Source: Bacteroidota bacterium
GTDB taxonomy: Bacteria; Bacteroidota; Bacteroidia; Bacteroidales; UBA12481
Reading direction: 5' to 3'
Assembly (NCBI GenBank): GCA_018669475.1
Contig: JABHCC010000061.1
Span: 1 to 64,000, forward strand
DNA: 64,000 nucleotides
Shown: positions 31,343-40,047 of the stretch, piece after piece
How positions within the stretch are numbered: the first letter of the stretch is position 1
Layout: each line of letters starts with the position of its first letter
Notes under the pieces: generated by a model
What the model was told of the DNA's origin: nothing
Databases searched by the model: none
The model's input: the letters and a program-made list of their open reading frames with translations, nothing else
Translations under genes and position numbers: made by a program

Positions 31343-32155
31343 CTACAATTTTACAAAACTTGCCGGTTTTGATCTATAGTGGGGAGTTATGACCTCGTAA
31401 AAATATATTCCAGATGGCAATTCAAGTAAATTAAGATTGTCTTCAGTACTGCCTTGTTTAAGCATGGTTCTGGACTTTAAGCTTCCTGATTCATCCCGAA
31501 TAATTAACCAGGCATCCCGGGAAAATACACTCTGATCAGTTCTTATACTCACCTCCCCTGAAGTAGGATTCGGATAGAATGTAAAAGACTCATTTGGAGA
31601 GTTAACATCAGAAATGTCAATTTCGGGTTTTCCGAGAAGAATTCCTGGTACACCATACACCTTAGTCTCTACTGAGTATGGAAAACTGGAATAATCATAA
31701 ATATAAAGGAAAAGCTTGCTTCCTGAATCTTCCATTTTTTTCAGGTCAGCATAAGCTCCTCCGGGTTCAGAAATCAAAACTGTCCCATTTTCGTTTATTA
31801 CCTGGCTTGTATAAATGTAATAATAGGAATTACCCACTTCAACGTACTGATAATAAATAATCAGAACTTCAAGCAGGTCATCGCTATTAAAAACATGCTG
31901 AGATACAAACTTAACATCCGTAAGATATCTGTCATTCGGAATATTAAATTTAATAGTTTTCCAATGGCTGTAATCCATATTATAGATTTCACACTGCTCG
32001 CCTAAAACATTCATAAGAAAAATCTTCTGGCCGTCTACCTCCAATTGAGTTGTAGTAGCTGAATGATTGTAGCTGTGCTCAAATTGAATTTGTGATTTTG
32101 CCGGAAATACAGAAACCATTATAAATAGCACAAGAGTTAGCGTAATATGTTTCAT
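31343..32155 (-). CDS. Small secreted protein with T9SS sorting domain
   Basis: The ATG at 32155 (MKHITLTLVLFI) gives 270 residues; a longer frame adds residues in front of the signal peptide. The signal ends KSQ. The middle of about 150 residues is beta-rich and not recognised. The tail starts FTFYPNPTSGEVSI and ends with SGIYFYEVITP and FVKL, a type A T9SS signal. It is likely exported to the surface. It lies downstream of the seven-gene operon with a 97-base gap, so co-transcription is possible. Confidence 0.75.
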   Translation of the reverse strand: MKHITLTLVLFIMVSVFPAKSQIQFEHSYNHSATTTQLEVDGQKIFLMNVLGEQCEIYNMDYSHWKTIKFNIPNDRYLTDVKFVSQHVFNSDDLLEVLIIYYQYVEVGNSYYYIYTSQVINENGTVLISEPGGAYADLKKMEDSGSKLFLYIYDYSSFPYSVETKVYGVPGILLGKPEIDISDVNSPNESFTFYPNPTSGEVSIRTDQSVFSRDAWLIIRDESGSLKSRTMLKQGSTEDNLNLLELPSGIYFYEVITPHYRSKPASFVKL

Positions 32156-32252: not shown

Positions 32253-33263
32253 TCATAATTTAAAATGTTGATCTTTTAATAAGAAAACTAAAATAGTGGA
32301 AGTTGCTGAAACAGCAACAAAGCCAATAAAATAAGCCCAGAGGCCCAGTTCCTGATAATAGAAGCTGGCCAGATTACCAATAATTAACCATTGAATAACA
32401 TAAAATCGGGTCAGTTTTTTACCAGCAAACTGAATCCATGCGGAAAAACCTCCCCTTCTCAAAACCGGAAACAGACTTAGCAAGGCAACTAGTGCCAGGG
32501 TGTGGGATATTCCCCAAACAAAAACCATTATGCCATGGTGATAAAAAGGTGAAAGATCTTCCAGATCATTCCAGTTGAAGATATAAGCAAGAGAGGATAT
32601 TGCTAGTGTCACAGTCAGGAATAATATCTTCTTCACAGCTTTTATCTGCTTGAAAGAAAACCTATTCAGGAGCAGAGCAAGAGAATACCCTACGATGGGA
32701 TAAGAAAGCCATGGAAACAAAGGGAAAAATGACCACTCTGCCCTGCTTCCCACAAAAGCCAGGAGATAGCTTTGCGGATTGATTTTATCCATTAAATCAG
32801 TCATCCACGGAGAAATAGCCGCGATTCCAACAGCAATAACCAGGCTTAGCCAAATAGAGAGTTTCAAATAACGGATTATTCCGATAATTATTAATGAAAA
32901 CCCGGCCAGGTACAGAATATCAACTGCAAATATCGCCTCAAGTATCTGACCATCTATTTGTTTGCTTACAATTCTTATAATAAAATTAAGGTTAAGACCA
33001 ATATTTAACAGTAATCCCCAAAATAAAACCTTGAATCCCCTTCCAATTAGTTTTCGTGAATTTGCTTTCGTATGGTGGGCCAAAAATCCCATAAGCAGCA
33101 TAAAAATAATTGCTGCAGGAAAGTTGTTGAAAAAGCGAATAACCTCCCCAACAGGTGTATTCAATATATCCTGCCGGATCCAGGTTTCAAATATGTGAGC
33201 CTGGATCATAATGATCACTGACCAGCCTTTCAGGTAGTCTGGTATCCACAGTCGCTTTTCCAT
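32253..33263 (-). CDS. HGSNAT-like multi-pass membrane acyltransferase (DUF1624 type)
   Basis: This 336-residue protein with about ten hydrophobic helices starts RLWIPDYLKGWSVIIMIQAHIFE and carries FFPLFPWLSYPIVGYSLALL, both typical of the heparan-alpha-glucosaminide N-acetyltransferase/DUF1624 family, which moves acetyl groups across membranes onto amino groups. It is the last gene of the seven-gene operon and begins 5 bases after the TPR gene stop. The active-site histidine known in human HGSNAT cannot be assigned with confidence; AHIFE near the start is a candidate. The substrate here is unknown. Confidence 0.65.
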   Translation of the reverse strand: MEKRLWIPDYLKGWSVIIMIQAHIFETWIRQDILNTPVGEVIRFFNNFPAAIIFMLLMGFLAHHTKANSRKLIGRGFKVLFWGLLLNIGLNLNFIIRIVSKQIDGQILEAIFAVDILYLAGFSLIIIGIIRYLKLSIWLSLVIAVGIAAISPWMTDLMDKINPQSYLLAFVGSRAEWSFFPLFPWLSYPIVGYSLALLLNRFSFKQIKAVKKILFLTVTLAISSLAYIFNWNDLEDLSPFYHHGIMVFVWGISHTLALVALLSLFPVLRRGGFSAWIQFAGKKLTRFYVIQWLIIGNLASFYYQELGLWAYFIGFVAVSATSTILVFLLKDQHFKL

Positions 33264-33268
33264 CTTTG

Positions 33269-33892
33269 CTATCGAATAAGACTTAAACCTTCAAGACAGG
33301 ATTTATCTCCAGGACGATATAATAATCCTTTATTAAACAGAGCCTCAGCTTCCTGAGTTTTTCCTAAACGTAGTTTGGTCCATGCCAGCATGTGAAGTCC
33401 GTCATAATCAAATGGATATAAGTTTACTGTTTTGGAGAAAAGGATTTCAGCTTTCCCATAATCAGACTGCCCGTAATAAACTAGCCCAAAACGATAGTTT
33501 GCCAAACTATTTTGTGGATCTATCTCTAATATTTCCTCGTATGTTTGAATTACCTGCTTCCAACTCCCTAAGGAAGTCAAAGGATAAACTAATCCGAAAC
33601 GAGCCTCCAATCCGTAGGGCATTAACTGAACTGCTCTTCTGTAGTAGCTCTCTGATTCATCGAGTAAGCCTGCTTTAAAACTTAACCATCCCAAACGCAG
33701 GTTTATTTCGTATGAATCTTTGTCAAAGACATTCTTAAGAGCCTCTGATGCCTTAGAATAGTCACCTTCAATTTCAGCTTTATAACTCTCAGCAAAAGCT
33801 GTTATCAATTCCTGTTGGTTTTGTGCTTTACCAAACTGGACTGAGATAAAAACAATAAGGATTATTCCGGTAATTTTCTTTAAAAGTTCCAT
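33269..33892 (-). CDS. Exported TPR protein
   Basis: This 207-residue protein has a signal peptide (GKAQ near residue 24) and tetratricopeptide-like repeats from about 30 to the end, including NLRLGWLSFKAGLLDESESYY, ANYRFGLVYYGQSDYGKAEI and LHMLAWTKLRLGKTQEAEA. It probably works as a periplasmic scaffold for the outer-membrane barrel encoded just upstream, whose gene it overlaps by 13 bases. No enzyme motif. Confidence 0.8.
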   Translation of the reverse strand: MELLKKITGIILIVFISVQFGKAQNQQELITAFAESYKAEIEGDYSKASEALKNVFDKDSYEINLRLGWLSFKAGLLDESESYYRRAVQLMPYGLEARFGLVYPLTSLGSWKQVIQTYEEILEIDPQNSLANYRFGLVYYGQSDYGKAEILFSKTVNLYPFDYDGLHMLAWTKLRLGKTQEAEALFNKGLLYRPGDKSCLEGLSLIR

Positions 33893-35205
33893 GTTATGCC
33901 TCCAAAAATGCTAGTAGATTTAAAATTAAGTAATACAGGATCAATACTTCCATCCGGCAGGTATACATCAGCATAATGATCTCTTTGTTGTAAATATCCT
34001 GACAGACTAATCTGAAGCTGGGGAATAAGTCCTGAAATAACAAGACTAATTCCTGTTCTTGATCGAATGGGATGAACAGTATTAAACAGGTAGTATCCTC
34101 CTGCATCTGCCCAGTTAGAAAGGTTACCAAACAGATGACTGCCTTCAATGTAAAAGCCTTTAAAAAGTTTTGCTCCTGCGAGCAATTTCCAGGCTTCTTC
34201 TGTATTGGATGAATCAGATGGGTTCATTCGGTCATATGTTACATTTACATAGTAATCAAGACTGCCAAATGGATAATAAACAAGAGAGGTACCTGCTTGG
34301 TAGTAAACACCTTGCCAAAAATTGTTTTGAGAAAAATGAAAATTTACATCCATATTTGTAAAGTGCTTTCCTAAATAGCCCCCAACAAAGCTTTGCTTGT
34401 AAATTTCATTGGCATCCGTAAAATTATACTGCCCTGAAGGATTTGACTGATAGCTTGTAACTGAATATACTCCTGAGATATTATGAAGAGAAGCCCCAAA
34501 ATACCATGATTTTGGTAAGCTATACTGATAGCCTAAGTATACACCTGTTTGCCTGCTTGTATGTTTGAAATCAAATAATTCTCCGGATGTATATACATTC
34601 TGTAAAGCTTGTCCATCATATAGCTTACCTGCGATTGTCAAGCTTGATTTATACCCCAGGTTAATACCGATACTGGCATTCGCATAGTTCATTTTGGTAA
34701 TAAAATAGCTGCTCACGAAATCACCCGTTGGCATGCCAGCTTGCAATTCATCTACCGAATTATTTGTAAAAACTCCCCCTTCAGCAAAAACTCCACGAAC
34801 AGAATACTCTCTTAATGCCTTCATTTTTGTTCGCTCTGCCACTGGAATTTCTCCCAGTAAGATTCTAGCTTCTCCATATCTACCACTGAACAGATTAGAA
34901 TAATATAAATAATACATCGCAGTTGGATCATTGGGAGTAAAAGAAAGAGCCTTAAGCAGTTCAGTACGAGCCCTTTCATATTGTCTCAAAGAGTACCAGG
35001 CTATGGCGAGGCGCATTCTGAGATAATAATAATCATACCCAAGCTCCAGTGCATAATTTCCTTTGTCGATTAGGATTCTCCAATCCTGACGTAAATAAAG
35101 TTGATAGGTTTCCTCATCTATTTGGATGCGATTGGGAACATCCTGAGCCTGGATGGTTATTCCCATTACAAGAATACATGCTAATATTATAAGTTTCTTT
35201 CCCAT
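33880..35205 (-). CDS. TPR plus outer-membrane beta-barrel protein
   Basis: This 441-residue protein has a signal peptide ending IQAQ, TPR-like helices at about 40-130 (LAIAWYSLRQYERARTELLK), then alternating aromatic strands to a terminal FGGITWNF that ends in Phe, as outer-membrane barrels do. The combination resembles PgaA or YaiO, in which periplasmic TPRs precede an export barrel. Its gene overlaps the neighbours by 19 bases upstream and 13 downstream. Export of a polymer or peptide is a plausible role, by analogy only. Confidence 0.7.
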   Translation of the reverse strand: MGKKLIILACILVMGITIQAQDVPNRIQIDEETYQLYLRQDWRILIDKGNYALELGYDYYYLRMRLAIAWYSLRQYERARTELLKALSFTPNDPTAMYYLYYSNLFSGRYGEARILLGEIPVAERTKMKALREYSVRGVFAEGGVFTNNSVDELQAGMPTGDFVSSYFITKMNYANASIGINLGYKSSLTIAGKLYDGQALQNVYTSGELFDFKHTSRQTGVYLGYQYSLPKSWYFGASLHNISGVYSVTSYQSNPSGQYNFTDANEIYKQSFVGGYLGKHFTNMDVNFHFSQNNFWQGVYYQAGTSLVYYPFGSLDYYVNVTYDRMNPSDSSNTEEAWKLLAGAKLFKGFYIEGSHLFGNLSNWADAGGYYLFNTVHPIRSRTGISLVISGLIPQLQISLSGYLQQRDHYADVYLPDGSIDPVLLNFKSTSIFGGITWNF

Positions 35206-37403
35206 TTTAACTGGATTTTTGAGGACTCTGACTGTCCGTCAACCTCAATCCCTTCCTCACTCAGATTCATGCTGAATTTCCAACTTTGGATAATTTGATC
35301 GAATATACACAGCCTTACATCAGAATTAAGATGAACTTCGTCATTGCCGAAAAGATCCTTCTTTTCAGGCAGGTTTAATGAATATTTACCAACCAGGTAT
35401 ATTGCAAACGGTGCAAGGAAATCCTGGAAAATCATCGATACTTTAGAGAAAACCTGATTAGGCGGAAATTGATCTGCAACTTTTGTCTGCTTCCCATAGT
35501 AAAGCGGTACTTGGAAAAATGCGAGATAAAAAAAGTATAATGGAGACTTTCTGTTCCCTTCAAAGTGTACAAAATAGAATACCTGGCCGTTCATTTGGTA
35601 AAATGCCTTTGAACCTGAATCCTGACATACAATATAACTTTCATTAAACGGAGTGGTTTTGATTTCCCATACAACATTCCGTTCTTCATTGTTCAGTACG
35701 AAATTAAGTTTAAGTCTCTGACCCGGAACAAAATCGAAAAGTTTATGTAGCAATTGCATTGGTTCCGGATTCCTGATTGATTCAGTTTGCTTTGGTATGC
35801 TGAATGCTTTGGATTCATATCCACCATGATCCTTTTTAAGATAATAAGAGATTGGATATTCCAGAGTGCTTGACTCTATATATGGCGTAGCTTGCATTTG
35901 AAAATGGATATGTGGTTCAGGACTCCGTCCTGAGTTTCCACAAGTTCCAAGTTGCGTTCCACGTGTCACCCAGTCACCTTTTCTTACTTTTATTGAGCCC
36001 TTTTTGAAATGGGAAAGCTTAGCATAAAGCTGCTCATCATGTTTTATAATGACGGTATTTCCCCAATTGTTTTTCAGATTTACCTGTCCGACCAGATTAT
36101 CCGGGATGCCTTCAACTACTTCAACTATATAACCATCCGCAGGCGATAAAACAGGCTTGTCATAAGCAAGGAAGTCAGATAGTTTTGTCCCTTCATTTCG
36201 GTAAGTATTACCATCCTCTCCAATCATTACAAAGTCCCAGGCATGACGCCAATCACCACGATGTGTAATTTCTCCATCATATCCCTGACTAACAAACCAA
36301 TCACCCCAAAAAGGAAGTGAGAGGAGAAATGGCCGGTGTTCCTCAAAACGAGTATTGTAATTCACAAAGGCATATAGATTCTTTTCAGGCGAATTTTGCT
36401 GAATTTGCACTTCTTGTAAATTCTTACCTTTTTCAAATCGCCACTTCATCACGTAAATAAATAAAATTGTTGTGATATTAAATGGCAGTGCATACACAGA
36501 TAATTGCCAATTGGCCAGGAGCTCACTAAATCCAATAGTGATAATTGCTACAATTGGCGTCAACAAAATAACCCATAGTATACTTGTCTTTGTGGGTATA
36601 TTATAAAAACCACCTACAGCGATTGCAGTAAGCATATAATTGAACCCGATATATGCATAATCAGCTTCAGTGATTCCCATTCCCATAAGCAAATAGAAAC
36701 CATAAGCTGCGCTGAATCCAATTATGGAAAGGATAAAAGAAATCCTGGATGCTAAAAGCAGTCCGAAAGCAATAAAAATTCCGCCGGCAATTGAATTTTG
36801 AAAGAAAATAGCAGATAATGAAATCAAATAGGCTTTCACAAAGGCCCCAACCCTTAGGTTTTGAAACCATTCGTATACACCAACAAGCCATGTTCCTCCA
36901 ATTCCATAAAGTTCATTTAACTGATAAATATTCTGCCCATTGAATTGTAAGGCTTCAAATTCACGAGTTGCAAGTACGAGAATCCAAATAATCAAGACAA
37001 AGGGCAGGCTTAGAAAAGGTAACTGATACTTAGCCAGTATACCCTGAACAGCGATAGTAAGCAGGAAAGTAAACAGAGAAACCACCACAACCAGCACCCA
37101 GAAAGCTAGTCCGGGCTCATAAAATAAACCTAAAGGCAGGGTGGCTAAAAGCGCATTGTATCCCCAAAGCCCTTTGACAGTTTTACGTCGGTCAAATCCC
37201 ATATAGAAAGCGAGTAGCGAAGTCAAAAGAACGCTTAATAAGCCTGCAAATCCCGCCAGAGGGAAGAAGAAGGTTGTAAGCAACAGGATCAACCCAAATA
37301 GCCTATGATCTGAGAAAAATATCTGGCCATAGGCATTTAGGACCGATTGTACTAATTCATTTGGCTTTGGCCACTTCATGGTATGGGAGGGACTTTGACT
37401 CAT
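35187..37403 (-). CDS. Urea-transporter/M23 peptidase fusion
   Basis: This 738-residue fusion has an N-terminal membrane part (about 20-320) with both internal repeats of the urea transporter family: GYNALLATLPLG and LPFLSLPF, then GFNYMLTAIAVGG and ALPFNI. Residues 375-510 are an M23 metallopeptidase domain with candidate ligands His381, Asp390 (HAWDF), and His498/His500 (HIHF). The remaining 200 residues are not recognised. The start overlaps the decarboxylase stop as ATGA. The peptidase should sit on the periplasmic side and cut peptides or peptidoglycan; the channel may pass a small product rather than urea. Confidence 0.85.
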   Translation of the reverse strand: MSQSPSHTMKWPKPNELVQSVLNAYGQIFFSDHRLFGLILLLTTFFFPLAGFAGLLSVLLTSLLAFYMGFDRRKTVKGLWGYNALLATLPLGLFYEPGLAFWVLVVVVSLFTFLLTIAVQGILAKYQLPFLSLPFVLIIWILVLATREFEALQFNGQNIYQLNELYGIGGTWLVGVYEWFQNLRVGAFVKAYLISLSAIFFQNSIAGGIFIAFGLLLASRISFILSIIGFSAAYGFYLLMGMGITEADYAYIGFNYMLTAIAVGGFYNIPTKTSILWVILLTPIVAIITIGFSELLANWQLSVYALPFNITTILFIYVMKWRFEKGKNLQEVQIQQNSPEKNLYAFVNYNTRFEEHRPFLLSLPFWGDWFVSQGYDGEITHRGDWRHAWDFVMIGEDGNTYRNEGTKLSDFLAYDKPVLSPADGYIVEVVEGIPDNLVGQVNLKNNWGNTVIIKHDEQLYAKLSHFKKGSIKVRKGDWVTRGTQLGTCGNSGRSPEPHIHFQMQATPYIESSTLEYPISYYLKKDHGGYESKAFSIPKQTESIRNPEPMQLLHKLFDFVPGQRLKLNFVLNNEERNVVWEIKTTPFNESYIVCQDSGSKAFYQMNGQVFYFVHFEGNRKSPLYFFYLAFFQVPLYYGKQTKVADQFPPNQVFSKVSMIFQDFLAPFAIYLVGKYSLNLPEKKDLFGNDEVHLNSDVRLCIFDQIIQSWKFSMNLSEEGIEVDGQSESSKIQLKWERNL

Positions 37404-38749
37404 TTCTTCAGATGCTCAGGAACTTGCTCTAATTCTTGCATATATTCAAGGTTCTCTTCTTTTCTTATCATATGAACCTCTTGATTTTCATCAATTAAGT
37501 ATATAGCCGGACGGAAGGTAATAAATTGCATCCATTGGGTCATATTATAAGCTCCAACACGGGGAATAACCACAGGATCTCCTGGTTCCAGCAATGGATA
37601 CTTCAAATTCTTACGTATAACATCAATGTTCATACAGAGAGGTCCTACAATATCAGTTTCATCTGTAGATTGAGTTGTGTCAAAACCCGGATGCACTTCC
37701 AGTTCATACCAGAAACTTGTGAAAAGCATATTTATCCCAACATCAAGAATCAGTGCTCTGCGTCCATCTGACAGTCTTTTCGTTGCCGAAACTCTACTGA
37801 GCAGATAACCTGCCTCATCAACCAAAGCTCGGCCAGTCTCAAGTATGAGATAAGGTGGGTCTCCACCAGGCCAGTTTTGCTGCAGAATAGCCGAAGTAAT
37901 TGCATCAGCATAAGCATCAAAAGATGGTACCACGTCGGCAGCAGCATGATAAGCTCCTTTCAGAGTATTAGCAGATGCAAATCCACCGCCCAAATCGAGA
38001 TATTGAATTGAATGTCCATAGCTATTATGAATGTCCATTGCAATGCCACTCATTTTTTGAGCAGCTATTCTGTATGCCTCAGTGCTTAAAATATATGTTC
38101 CAATATGAGTATGAAGACCAACAAGATCAAGAAACTCACTTTGCATTATGAACTCTATCGCTTTCCAGGCTTCCCCGTTTTCGAAGTTAAATCCGAAACG
38201 ATCCCACTTGGGAAATATTCCTGTATCCATATTTATCCGAATAGCTACACGAGCTTTCTTCTTTAAGCTATCAGACAAACGGATCAAATCAATCAATTCA
38301 TCGAAATGATCAATATGAATGACCGATTGATTTTCTATCGATTTTGTCAGTTCATTCTCTGATTTCATCGGACCATTAAATATGATCTGATTCCCAGGAA
38401 CCTCGTTGAACAGAGCCTTGTCATATTCAAATCCGGAAACTACCTCCGCCCATGCTCCTTCCTGATGAAAAACCCGACAAACTGCATTAATGTAGTTGGT
38501 TTTGTATGACCAGGCAAACTGCACCTTGGGGTAGCGAGAGGAGAAAGCCTGGTAGGCTTTGCGGTATGTTTCTCTTAACTTGTTTTCTGAAATAATAAAG
38601 AATGGAGATCCATACTTCTCAATCAGACTACTTACTGGTATTCCTTCAATGTCTTTGATCGGGGCATATCCTTGTCCCATACCGGTTTTACCAGGCATGC
38701 CTGGTTTCACAACCTGAATAACAGGTACTTCAAATTTTTTCTTTTCCAT
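37400..38749 (-). CDS. Fold-III PLP decarboxylase (DAP/ornithine decarboxylase family)
   Basis: This 449-residue protein has PLP lysine Lys83 in FAWSYKTNYINAV, His213/His215 in GLHTHIGTY, GGG at 254-256, ETGRALV at 304-310 and GPLC (Cys372) with Asp376 behind it, then GAYNMTQWMQF. This is the diaminopimelate/arginine/ornithine decarboxylase fold with both halves of the active site present, so it should be active on a basic or carboxylated amino acid. EPGR is changed to ETGR, so the substrate may differ from DAP. It overlaps the ATP-grasp gene by 20 bases, and the fusion gene by 4. Confidence 0.88.
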   Translation of the reverse strand: MEKKKFEVPVIQVVKPGMPGKTGMGQGYAPIKDIEGIPVSSLIEKYGSPFFIISENKLRETYRKAYQAFSSRYPKVQFAWSYKTNYINAVCRVFHQEGAWAEVVSGFEYDKALFNEVPGNQIIFNGPMKSENELTKSIENQSVIHIDHFDELIDLIRLSDSLKKKARVAIRINMDTGIFPKWDRFGFNFENGEAWKAIEFIMQSEFLDLVGLHTHIGTYILSTEAYRIAAQKMSGIAMDIHNSYGHSIQYLDLGGGFASANTLKGAYHAAADVVPSFDAYADAITSAILQQNWPGGDPPYLILETGRALVDEAGYLLSRVSATKRLSDGRRALILDVGINMLFTSFWYELEVHPGFDTTQSTDETDIVGPLCMNIDVIRKNLKYPLLEPGDPVVIPRVGAYNMTQWMQFITFRPAIYLIDENQEVHMIRKEENLEYMQELEQVPEHLKK

Positions 38750-39809
38750 TGTTCTCTCTATTTAATGTGCCGGTGGCTGTAATATCTTGATAATCTTCTA
38801 ATTGGGCAATATTGTCATATGAATATCGTACAAACATGGTGCCTACACGGTAATCAGTATAGGGCTCTACATCATTACCGAGAGCCAGGTCAACCATAGC
38901 TTCAGGTAAATTTTGACCAGCTCCAACCGCCAGGTAAACCCAGGCTGGAATTCTCGGATTTATTTCAATCAGATACATATCATTATTGTCAGTTCGGATT
39001 AGTTCTAATTCCATCCCTCCGCCCCATTTCATAGAGCTAATAATATGATCAGTAAGCTTCATCATTTCTTCATTGGCAATGGTAATGCCTCCCCAGGCTT
39101 TCCCTTTATCTGTAATGTATTGCTTTCTCATAGGAACAGCACCAATAGTTCGTCCTTTGCCATCGCCTAATGCGACCACATTTACCTCGGTCCCTTTGAC
39201 AAATTCTTGTAGAATAACCGGCAATCCCCATTTCATGCTTATCCGGTAGAATTGAGCAAGTGCCTGCTCGAGACTATGAACCACTGAGGCATCATACATA
39301 TTTCCCTTGATTACAACAGGATAGCTCAATTCACGCATTACCTGATGTATATCTCCAGCCGATGAAAGCGGAAAACTCTTTGGAACAAGAACCCCATATT
39401 TCTCTCCAAAAACAGGAAGAACCGACTTGTGCCTTTCTTCATAATTCTGAAGCGATGGTAATAACATGTGAATCCCTAATTCAAGAAGATCATCCTCAAG
39501 TTTTATCATTGAGATTAGCTCAGAGTCGAAATTGGGAATTAAAACATCAATCCCTACCTCATCGTTTATTTGCGCAAGACGATAGTAAACTGCCTGAATC
39601 CCATTCGAGGGATAAGGCATGATATATACCTGATCAGCAATTCCCTCCATATATATTCCCGGCTCAAGAGTCTCATATACCAACCCGATAATTCTGACAT
39701 CAAACTTGGCAGACTCCCTGAGTGCCCTTATTACCGGCACCCCCGGACCTGGATTATCAGTGTTGTTCAATCCAGATACTGCAACTGTTATTTTTCTCTT
39801 TTTAGTCAT
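38730..39809 (-). CDS. ATP-grasp ligase (CarB/PylC-like)
   Basis: This 359-residue protein has a Rossmann-like N-terminal part starting ITVAVSGLNNTDNPGPG, a middle VVIKGN lysine strand, ILQEFVKGTEVNVVALGDG, and the metal-binding end ELELIRTDNNDMYLIEINPRIPAW (Glu/Glu/Asn). By family it activates a carboxylate with ATP and joins it to an amine, as in amino-acid or peptide ligases. It lies between a PqqD-like gene (8-base overlap) and a decarboxylase gene (20-base overlap), so it is probably part of one biosynthetic unit. Substrate unknown. Confidence 0.87.
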   Translation of the reverse strand: MTKKRKITVAVSGLNNTDNPGPGVPVIRALRESAKFDVRIIGLVYETLEPGIYMEGIADQVYIMPYPSNGIQAVYYRLAQINDEVGIDVLIPNFDSELISMIKLEDDLLELGIHMLLPSLQNYEERHKSVLPVFGEKYGVLVPKSFPLSSAGDIHQVMRELSYPVVIKGNMYDASVVHSLEQALAQFYRISMKWGLPVILQEFVKGTEVNVVALGDGKGRTIGAVPMRKQYITDKGKAWGGITIANEEMMKLTDHIISSMKWGGGMELELIRTDNNDMYLIEINPRIPAWVYLAVGAGQNLPEAMVDLALGNDVEPYTDYRVGTMFVRYSYDNIAQLEDYQDITATGTLNRENNGKEKI

Positions 39810-40047
39810 GGCTGATCAAATGATTCTTGTCTAGTAGAGCAACAAAATCAATAAATGCTTTCTCAAAACCCCACTCGTCAATCTCATAATTTTCGAGATA
39901 GAACTTTTTAATCTCGTCCTTACTCTGTCCCAGATGCAAGTATTTGAGCATCTCTAGTCCAATCGGATTAAGGGTGTAAGATTGCCCTGTTACCGGATCA
40001 AAAACAAACCCGTTGTCATTGATGGCTAAGCTGTTTTTTATTTTCAT
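39802..40047 (-). CDS. PqqD-family small protein (RiPP recognition element)
   Basis: This 81-residue protein carries FVFDPVTGQSYTLNPIGLEML, the typical PqqD-type beta-strand/helix pattern, followed by a helix with FLENYEIDE-like residues. PqqD proteins are winged-helix domains that bind peptide precursors and deliver them to modifying enzymes. It is the first gene of the seven-gene operon and overlaps the ATP-grasp gene. The 148 bases upstream contain no small precursor gene that I can see, so the peptide partner, if any, is elsewhere. Confidence 0.8.
   Translation of the reverse strand: MKIKNSLAINDNGFVFDPVTGQSYTLNPIGLEMLKYLHLGQSKDEIKKFYLENYEIDEWGFEKAFIDFVALLDKNHLISHD

Follow-up and report, generated by a model that had tools for sequence, protein, structure and literature searches.

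A conserved six-gene cassette of Bacteroidota whose stand-alone RRE appears to read the N-terminal tail of a decarboxylase

The 64,000-nucleotide stretch of Bacteroidota DNA analysed here (contig JABHCC010000061.1, hereafter the window) carries seven open reading frames (ORFs) at 32253-40047, all on the minus strand, which overlap by 8, 20, 4, 19 and 13 bases, with a last gap of 5 bases. Six of them form a conserved unit, consisting of a PqqD-like RiPP recognition element (RRE; RiPP, ribosomally synthesised and post-translationally modified peptide), an ATP-grasp ligase, a pyridoxal phosphate (PLP)-dependent decarboxylase, a fusion of a urea transporter (UT) channel with an M23 metallopeptidase, a barrel protein with tetratricopeptide repeat (TPR)-like helices and a TPR protein. 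The decarboxylase starts with a leader-like tail, and in sequence comparisons the first residue of the tail core goes one-to-one with the residue at the position by which the partner RRE would bind a leader tyrosine. We strongly infer that the RRE binds the decarboxylase tail.

Results

A recurring gene set

The unit was followed from two anchors. Of 395 genomes sampled across the phylum, 40 match the UT-M23 fusion: six through the M23 part alone, and 34, counting that of the window, through the channel as well. In the 34 loci taken from the 33 other UT-M23 genomes the PqqD, ATP-grasp, decarboxylase and UT-M23 genes are always present (34/34), accompanied by a TPR gene in 31/34, a sequence-recognisable barrel in 11/34 and an acyltransferase in 3/34; in more distant genomes the first four genes persist and the barrel diverges. 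Members of another family of ∼280 residues, barrel-like in sequence by eye, lie nearby in 17 of these loci, mostly directly 3′ of the TPR gene. The second anchor was the decarboxylase alignment, to which at least 583 sequences in named genomes are related; the analysis used the top 80. Among named loci with enough flanking DNA, PqqD is present in 61/62, ATP-grasp in 61/62, UT-M23 in 65/65, the barrel in 49/50 and TPR in 50/50; all six genes occur in 43/44 loci with enough DNA, and gene order is the same in 54/54 complete sets.

An earlier, sequence-only reading of the window had described a seven-gene overlapping operon acting as one functional unit. We recovered the same ORFs, strand and junction lengths, and the families recur together from both anchors, so that a check of co-occurrence across genomes leaves the unit standing. 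Six of the seven families proposed are conserved, and the seventh, a HGSNAT/acyltransferase-3-like membrane protein (P0007, 32253..33263, minus strand; HGSNAT_cat PF07786, E 5e-12), falls outside the core: an acyltransferase-like gene is found in only 5/115 loci and is therefore an optional member.

Scored at E ≤ 1e-100 in even genome samples, the decarboxylase is present in 75/395 genomes of the window's class, in 0/14 of the same-order genomes listed, and in 46/294 genomes of a second class; we take these classes to be Bacteroidia and Ignavibacteria, judging by named relatives. Named hosts include Algoriphagus, Cognataquiflexum, Mucilaginibacter, Pedobacter and Lutibacter, and further hosts are Balneolaceae and Chlorobiota bins and one Neomarinimicrobiota bin. 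A plasmid-borne cassette was sought and rejected, as 42 plasmid records match UT-M23, none over 80% of its length; the 10 records listed match the M23 part. One locus (L064) has another gene between PqqD and ATP-grasp.

Pairing of tail and pocket

The tail belongs to the product of the third gene (37400..38749, minus strand), a 449-residue fold III PLP decarboxylase (PF02784/PF00278, Orn_Arg_deC), and occupies its first 34 residues (38648..38749, minus strand), with a core F6-E-V-P-V-I11 followed by K21-x-G23. Family members have ∼30 such extra N-terminal residues, most commonly K-x-x-[Y/F]-E-R-P-V-I-x-K-x-x-x-G-x-x-x-K-F-G, and the core [Y/F]xxPx[IVL]x9K is found in 115/115 locus decarboxylases (113 of them distinct); the LysA of the window's own genome starts without a tail. 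The candidate binding partner is the 81-residue product of the first cassette gene (39802..40047, minus strand), a PqqD-like stand-alone RRE (PF05402, E 8e-6, 26.5 bits against a cut-off of 23.4).

Compared with the PDB, the RRE family profile matches TbiB1 (5v1u, 8.9e-12), TfuB1 (6jx3, 4.5e-8) and PbaB1 (9x90, 6.4e-5). Discrete lasso-peptide RREs read the motif [Y/W]xxPx[L/V/I/F/A], as set out in part of PMC13381572, and the decarboxylase tail matches this leader motif except for Phe in part of the family; in the Phe loci the Tyr-binding residue of the RRE is changed. This residue stands at RRE position 64, which in the alignment falls on PbaB1 Q79 and so on its LppB equivalent, D70. Sections of PMC13381572 report that LppB D70 hydrogen-bonds the leader Tyr and that PbaB1 G42N/Q79D gives much better binding of a Tyr-containing leader. 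RRE position 27, the probable equivalent of LppB N33, aligns with PbaB1 G42 and is Asn in 184/185 loci, with one gap, and pocket positions 54, 68, 72 and 77 are largely conserved. The window's own pair combines a Phe-type tail with Ala at RRE position 64. The sequence-only reading had the PqqD protein bind a separate peptide; the evidence points instead to the decarboxylase's own N-terminal tail as a ligand.

For the covariation count, 226 decarboxylase entries (115 and 111) were reduced to 185 distinct ones, leaving out 12 without PqqD in the available DNA (8/115 and 4/111), repeats (genomes drawn by several searches, the same decarboxylase in L032 and L082, whose contigs are equally long, and identical decarboxylases in L061 and L065) and three whose tails miss the search expression. 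The loci L061 and L065 lie at the two ends of one 3.74 Mb contig, perhaps an assembly repeat. The expression itself called for Y or F (a relaxed fallback was allowed), for P, for a hydrophobic residue and for K, so that selection accounts for part of the conservation of these letters among the 185; when the later GSP and the Pro serve as anchors, 223/226 entries can be read, with Tyr in 180, Phe in 43, and Lys and Gly in 222 each.

The first tail residue and RRE position 64 agree in 185/185 cases, all 146 Tyr tails being paired with Asp or Asn and none of the 39 Phe tails. An earlier count of 107 loci, with repeats kept in, gave Tyr with Asp/Asn in 74/74 and Phe with other residues in 33/33, and the three loci left out for their tails, L169 among them, fit the pairing when read separately, each showing Asp at position 64 alongside a Tyr tail. 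A comparison of 861 columns from the tail, decarboxylase body, ATP-grasp and RRE with RRE position 64 serves as a control for ancestry, because all columns share the same ancestry: only the tail residue partitions perfectly, giving 0.743 bits on position 64, which is its whole entropy, with the runner-up column at 0.457. After sequence weighting and average-product correction the pair ranks 1 of 63,261 RRE-versus-partner column pairs (z 15), and it is also first by normalised mutual information (0.751 versus 0.550).

Search for a separate precursor

Upstream of PqqD, no small precursor ORF was generally conserved among the 40 best matches listed, in which the conserved ORFs were the ends of large neighbours (type IX secretion system, T9SS, proteins), the others being a 114-residue ORF confined to one group and a short pair from two closely related loci. 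The 25,201 ORFs of at least 20 residues in the 115 loci include 135 that match the leader expression, and these are 102 decarboxylases and 33 ORFs unrelated by eye. A genome-wide search of the window's own genome, made with the strict form of the DNA motif, returned four matches, only the decarboxylase lying in a called ORF.

The two enzymes

The nearest solved relative of the decarboxylase is the N-citrylornithine decarboxylase FslC (E 3e-59), ahead of LysA diaminopimelate decarboxylases (1e-43). All 115 decarboxylases have GPxCM where LysA has CES, and CES[GS]D occurs in 0/115; the window's sequence scores below the curated cut-offs of both the N-citrylornithine decarboxylase model NF041039 (221 bits, cut-off 500) and the LysA model TIGR01048 (222.7 bits, cut-off 297.9). 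A LysA role for the cassette enzyme was rejected because of GPxCM in place of CES and because another gene of the same genome, adjoining an aspartate-kinase-like gene, is LysA-like and retains CES. According to parts of PMC7857480, SbnH, AcsE, MccE and BtrK share a clade with the citrylornithine enzyme; most members of this clade, which also contains diaminopimelate and D-ornithine decarboxylases, use conjugated amino acids as substrates. A conjugated amino-acid substrate is therefore likely for the cassette decarboxylase by analogy, since most of that clade act on such substrates.

The second gene (38730..39809, minus strand) encodes a 359-residue ATP-grasp ligase of the carbamoyl-phosphate-synthase-like group (PF15632, PF02655; profile matches 1a9x and 2pn1), which at 89 bits does not reach the cut-off of 390 for NF009405. 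Amide-forming and decarboxylating families are thus present as first proposed, as is the envelope side.

The channel-peptidase fusion

The fourth gene (35187..37403, minus strand) encodes a 738-residue protein made up of a UT channel (PF03253, E 1e-58), an M23 metallopeptidase (PF01551, E 7e-15) and a C-terminal beta domain. In its predicted model (mean predicted local distance difference test, pLDDT, 90.9) residues 9-351 align with urea channels over their full length (Z 36, 2.7 Å over 312 residues) and residues ∼357-535 with M23 peptidases (Z up to 15); the C-terminal domain (∼550-738) has no coverage in the structural alignment rows. The UT fold comprises ten membrane helices, according to part of PMC10541013, and because it is aligned here along its whole length the M23 domain should lie on the side of the N-terminus. 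Loops on this side average 9.4 Lys/Arg against 2.7 on the other, with a higher density in 55/55 sequences (loop limits set by hand from the model), and the M23 domain is therefore predicted to be on the cytoplasmic side. This prediction runs against the earlier idea that the peptidase acts on the exported product. A peptidoglycan hydrolase would lie beyond the cytoplasmic membrane, whereas the charge count favours the cytoplasm.

The M23 zinc and catalytic residues H381, D390, H465, H498 and H500 are invariant in 55/55 aligned sequences, and the peptidase is fused to the channel in 65/65 eligible named loci. In L058 the gene is split in two overlapping ORFs (L058:8944-11198), and the barrel and TPR genes follow ∼6 kb further on. 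M23 relatives also occur on haloarchaeal and Thermus plasmids (L264:2258-3121, L265:2141-3100 and L266:2216-3142), two of the three with N-terminal hydrophobic segments; haloarchaea are not known to have peptidoglycan.

The UT part of the protein scores 130.2 bits against TIGR03441 (urea_trans_yut), below the cut-off of 274.6. The equivalent of dvUT Glu187 is Ala, Ser or Gly in 55/55 sequences, and the Gln24 equivalent is kept in 39/55. A true urease is found in 1/34 cassette genomes, with five borderline weak matches and 28 genomes with none, which makes urea catabolism or supply an unlikely role.

Outer membrane components and a T9SS-tailed neighbour

The fifth gene (P0005, 33880..35205, minus strand) encodes a 441-residue protein with an apparent signal peptide, whose model (mean pLDDT 94.1) shows TPR-like helices followed by 14 long strands, predicting a FadL-like outer membrane barrel; by sequence its TPR signal is below curated cut-offs. 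It is followed by the 207-residue TPR protein P0006 (33269..33892, minus strand), identified by domain search and with an apparent signal peptide by eye. Exporters of the PgaA/secretin type are 16-strand TPR-barrels, and a PgaA-like polymer exporter had been the first interpretation of P0005. The strand count lends this no support, and FadL-type channels top the structural alignment list (Z ∼20) and come first in the Foldseek list, where the PgaA-type 4y25 is at rank 39 and PelB and BcsC are also lower down; PgaA is not among the 50 VIA-align rows shown.

Beside the cassette, at 31343..32155 on the minus strand, lies a gene for a small secreted protein with a T9SS sorting tail (PF18962 Por_Secre_tail, 35.3 bits, cut-off 27), a possible dedicated partner. 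It is the sole match in its own genome at E 0.01, SprA is present in that genome, and homologues accompany four other cassettes: in L076 and L081 they follow TPR, in L084 the gene separates ATP-grasp from the decarboxylase, and in L104 it immediately precedes the decarboxylase at the end of the contig. All 34 cassette genomes are in the SprA list, against 303/395 overall (counted by eye), a comparison confounded by shared ancestry. In many loci of the second class, which we take to be Ignavibacteria-like, T9SS-tailed proteins of ∼280 residues are encoded directly upstream of PqqD (for example L043:5339-6187, L045:5417-6262, L047:5123-6199 and L054:4218-5057). Homology between the other small T9SS proteins beside cassettes and that of the window is not established (hhalign probability 9.8).

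Other neighbouring genes and sites

Four cassettes have an IF-2B family gene (PF01008) between the decarboxylase and UT-M23 (L093:7538-8368, L099:11443-12276, L114:11364-12311 and L145:5039-5788); the L099 copy matches at E 1.3e-24, the four copies group together, and the insert could be a pointer to the substrate. Small AraC-type regulators with an N-terminal CxxC-like segment immediately precede several cassettes (among them L066:54-641, HTH_18; L067:792-1382; L068:4501-5094; L072:8070-8660), with LytTR in that place in other lineages. A DUF2202 protein (PF09968, E 2e-45) precedes the cassette in L107:7552-8142, and a DUF2202-related ORF has the same position in L106:2-553 and a few other loci. 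These upstream neighbours (AraC-type, LytTR, GNAT, DUF2202) differ by lineage and give no common clue. Promoter-like sites number 30 where chance predicts 30.6, and terminator-like sites, at 11 against 8.8 expected, also lie near the chance level.

Discussion

We favour, at somewhat better than even confidence, a model in which the RRE and the tail assemble the ligase and the decarboxylase, and a cytoplasmic peptidase-channel fusion frees and exports a small, apparently amino-acid-derived product. The cassette would then be a biosynthesis-and-export system on the plan of an RRE-guided peptide pathway in which an enzyme carries the leader. By gripping the decarboxylase tail the RRE would plausibly bring the ATP-grasp ligase and the decarboxylase together; the ligase would make an amide bond, either at an amino acid or at the tail's conserved lysine; and the carboxyl group of the conjugate would be removed by the decarboxylase, as FslC/FigC and BtrK do on conjugated substrates. 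The cytoplasm-facing M23 domain may then cut the product free for the UT channel to hand to the periplasm, in the manner of a peptidase-containing exporter. Beyond this point the steps are more speculative: the TPR proteins and the FadL-like barrel might carry the product across the outer membrane, where a T9SS-secreted surface protein might conceivably receive or sense it.

Several observations weigh against this model. The ATP-grasp group holds enzymes of many functions, and downstream of the first four genes the UT-M23-anchored loci are more variable. The covariation itself is less striking by some measures: uncorrected weighted mutual information puts the pair only 566th of 63,261, and a FastTree tree of the decarboxylase body and ATP-grasp has about three changes per trait; as the two labels never disagree, the changes of both traits fall together. 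On supported branches one tree test has a single independent pair and the other two, so that significance is out of reach and the sign test is powerless (p 0.5). Nor is the tail a perfect copy of a lasso leader. We know of no lasso counterpart to its ‘KFG’ part; its glycine lies 8 residues past the Pro; Phe as the first motif residue is absent from the motif as published in the relevant part of PMC13381572; and the conserved penultimate Thr of lasso leaders, described in part of PMC10368454, is missing. As for the fusion protein, the cytoplasmic placement of M23 is predicted from homology and charge with hand-set loop limits, loose text motifs for the zinc site match 101, 96 and 92 of 103 UT-M23 sequences, so not every copy is confirmed intact, and the UT pore is narrow, with a 2-3 Å constriction in the structures covered by part of PMC10541013, limiting what could pass.

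An extension of the model, tentative and in our view rather unlikely, makes the decarboxylase both enzyme and precursor: the tail lysine would be loaded with an amino acid by the ATP-grasp ligase, the RRE would present the tail to the decarboxylase active site as a swinging arm, and the cytoplasmic M23 would cut the product free and feed it into its own channel. If true, this would be a new small-molecule route, a carrier-peptide pathway with neither a carrier protein nor a separate precursor. The natural variant L169, with Gln for the tail Lys, counts against an obligatory lysine acceptor and so against a covalent carrier. It fits better with a plainer arrangement, to which we give a little under an even chance and which overlaps with the favoured model as its simpler half, namely a non-covalent metabolon in which the tail is a docking tag, the RRE glues ATP-grasp and decarboxylase together, and M23 has some other task, for example the turnover of peptides entering the cytoplasm. 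The tail-RRE covariation fits docking alone, as does the failure to find a separate core peptide among the ORFs of the 115 loci. Docking would leave two things unaccounted for: the Lys and the Gly of the KFG part are near-invariant (222/223 each) beyond the RRE-binding core, suggesting a second role for the tail, and the peptidase is fused to the channel in every eligible locus.

The remaining explanations we consider less probable than any of these. Modification of a T9SS surface protein, with the product attached to or carried by the small T9SS-tailed neighbour, is improbable; the window's protein is unique in its genome, has homologues beside or inside four other cassettes, and SprA is listed for all 34 cassette genomes, yet its family occurs in only 5/115 loci, the other small T9SS proteins are not linked to it by homology, and SprA is common. 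A conventional RiPP pathway, with a precursor encoded elsewhere and a decarboxylase tail that imitates the leader and thereby draws the enzyme to the same RRE, would suit an RRE of the lasso B1 type and a ligase family whose members make the lactam and lactone links of graspetides (from part of PMC8939145). We nevertheless hold it to be slightly more improbable again, given that the leader-motif ORFs of the loci are decarboxylases or unrelated and that the strict motif in the window's genome leads to the decarboxylase as the only called ORF. Least probable is an uptake system, in which the barrel and UT channel would import a small amide or urea-like compound for assimilation by the cytoplasmic enzymes. 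Known examples of FadL-type barrels and of UT channels serve for uptake, and these are the structural matches of the cassette proteins; against import stand the scarcity of urease, the replaced Glu187 equivalent (even with Gln24 often kept) and a ligase and leader-type docking that look biosynthetic.

The cassette has likenesses to several known systems. With the discrete B1 RREs of lasso/LPP pathways (TbiB1, TfuB1/FusB1, PbaB1, LppB) its RRE shares sequence family, pocket positions and ligand motif, but here the motif is on a decarboxylase and not on a precursor peptide, Phe replaces Tyr/Trp in part of the family, and the cassette shows no cyclase, B2 protease or precursor gene. The FslC/FigC clade (SbnH, AcsE, MccE, BtrK) provides the nearest solved relative, the GPxCM motif and a precedent for conjugated amino acids, whereas the cassette enzyme falls far below the FslC model cut-off, has a conserved N-terminal tail and has no siderophore synthetase beside it in the cassette. 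In butirosin biosynthesis BtrJ, BtrI and BtrK combine ATP-grasp loading with subsequent decarboxylation of the tethered amino acid, a similar logic; the cassette lacks an acyl carrier protein, and the enzyme's own tail would, hypothetically, be the carrier. Peptidase-containing ATP-binding cassette transporters join a cytoplasmic C39 cysteine peptidase to an export channel, and the cassette also has a peptidase-channel fusion, although with a UT channel and an M23 zinc peptidase. Urea transporters (dvUT, UT-A, UT-B) share the complete UT fold with the cassette protein, which differs in its fused peptidase, its replaced Glu187 equivalent and the general absence of urease from its genomes. The sequence-only reading knew of no described pathway with this set of genes, and none has come to light: our search of open-licence PubMed Central found no description of the PqqD/ATP-grasp/UT/M23/decarboxylase/RRE combination, and the available portions of the RiPP surveys PMC8939145 and PMC10352776 and of the RRE survey PMC12710340 do not mention such a cassette.

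Stand-alone RREs are used for finding peptide natural products and are assumed to read precursor peptides. Here the RRE appears to read the tail of an enzyme, which, if confirmed, would widen the known roles of RREs and caution genome miners against reading every RRE next to an ATP-grasp gene as a sign of a RiPP. The cassette would also, if confirmed, add a peptidase-channel architecture to those known and open a first way into an envelope pathway that is widespread but unexplored.

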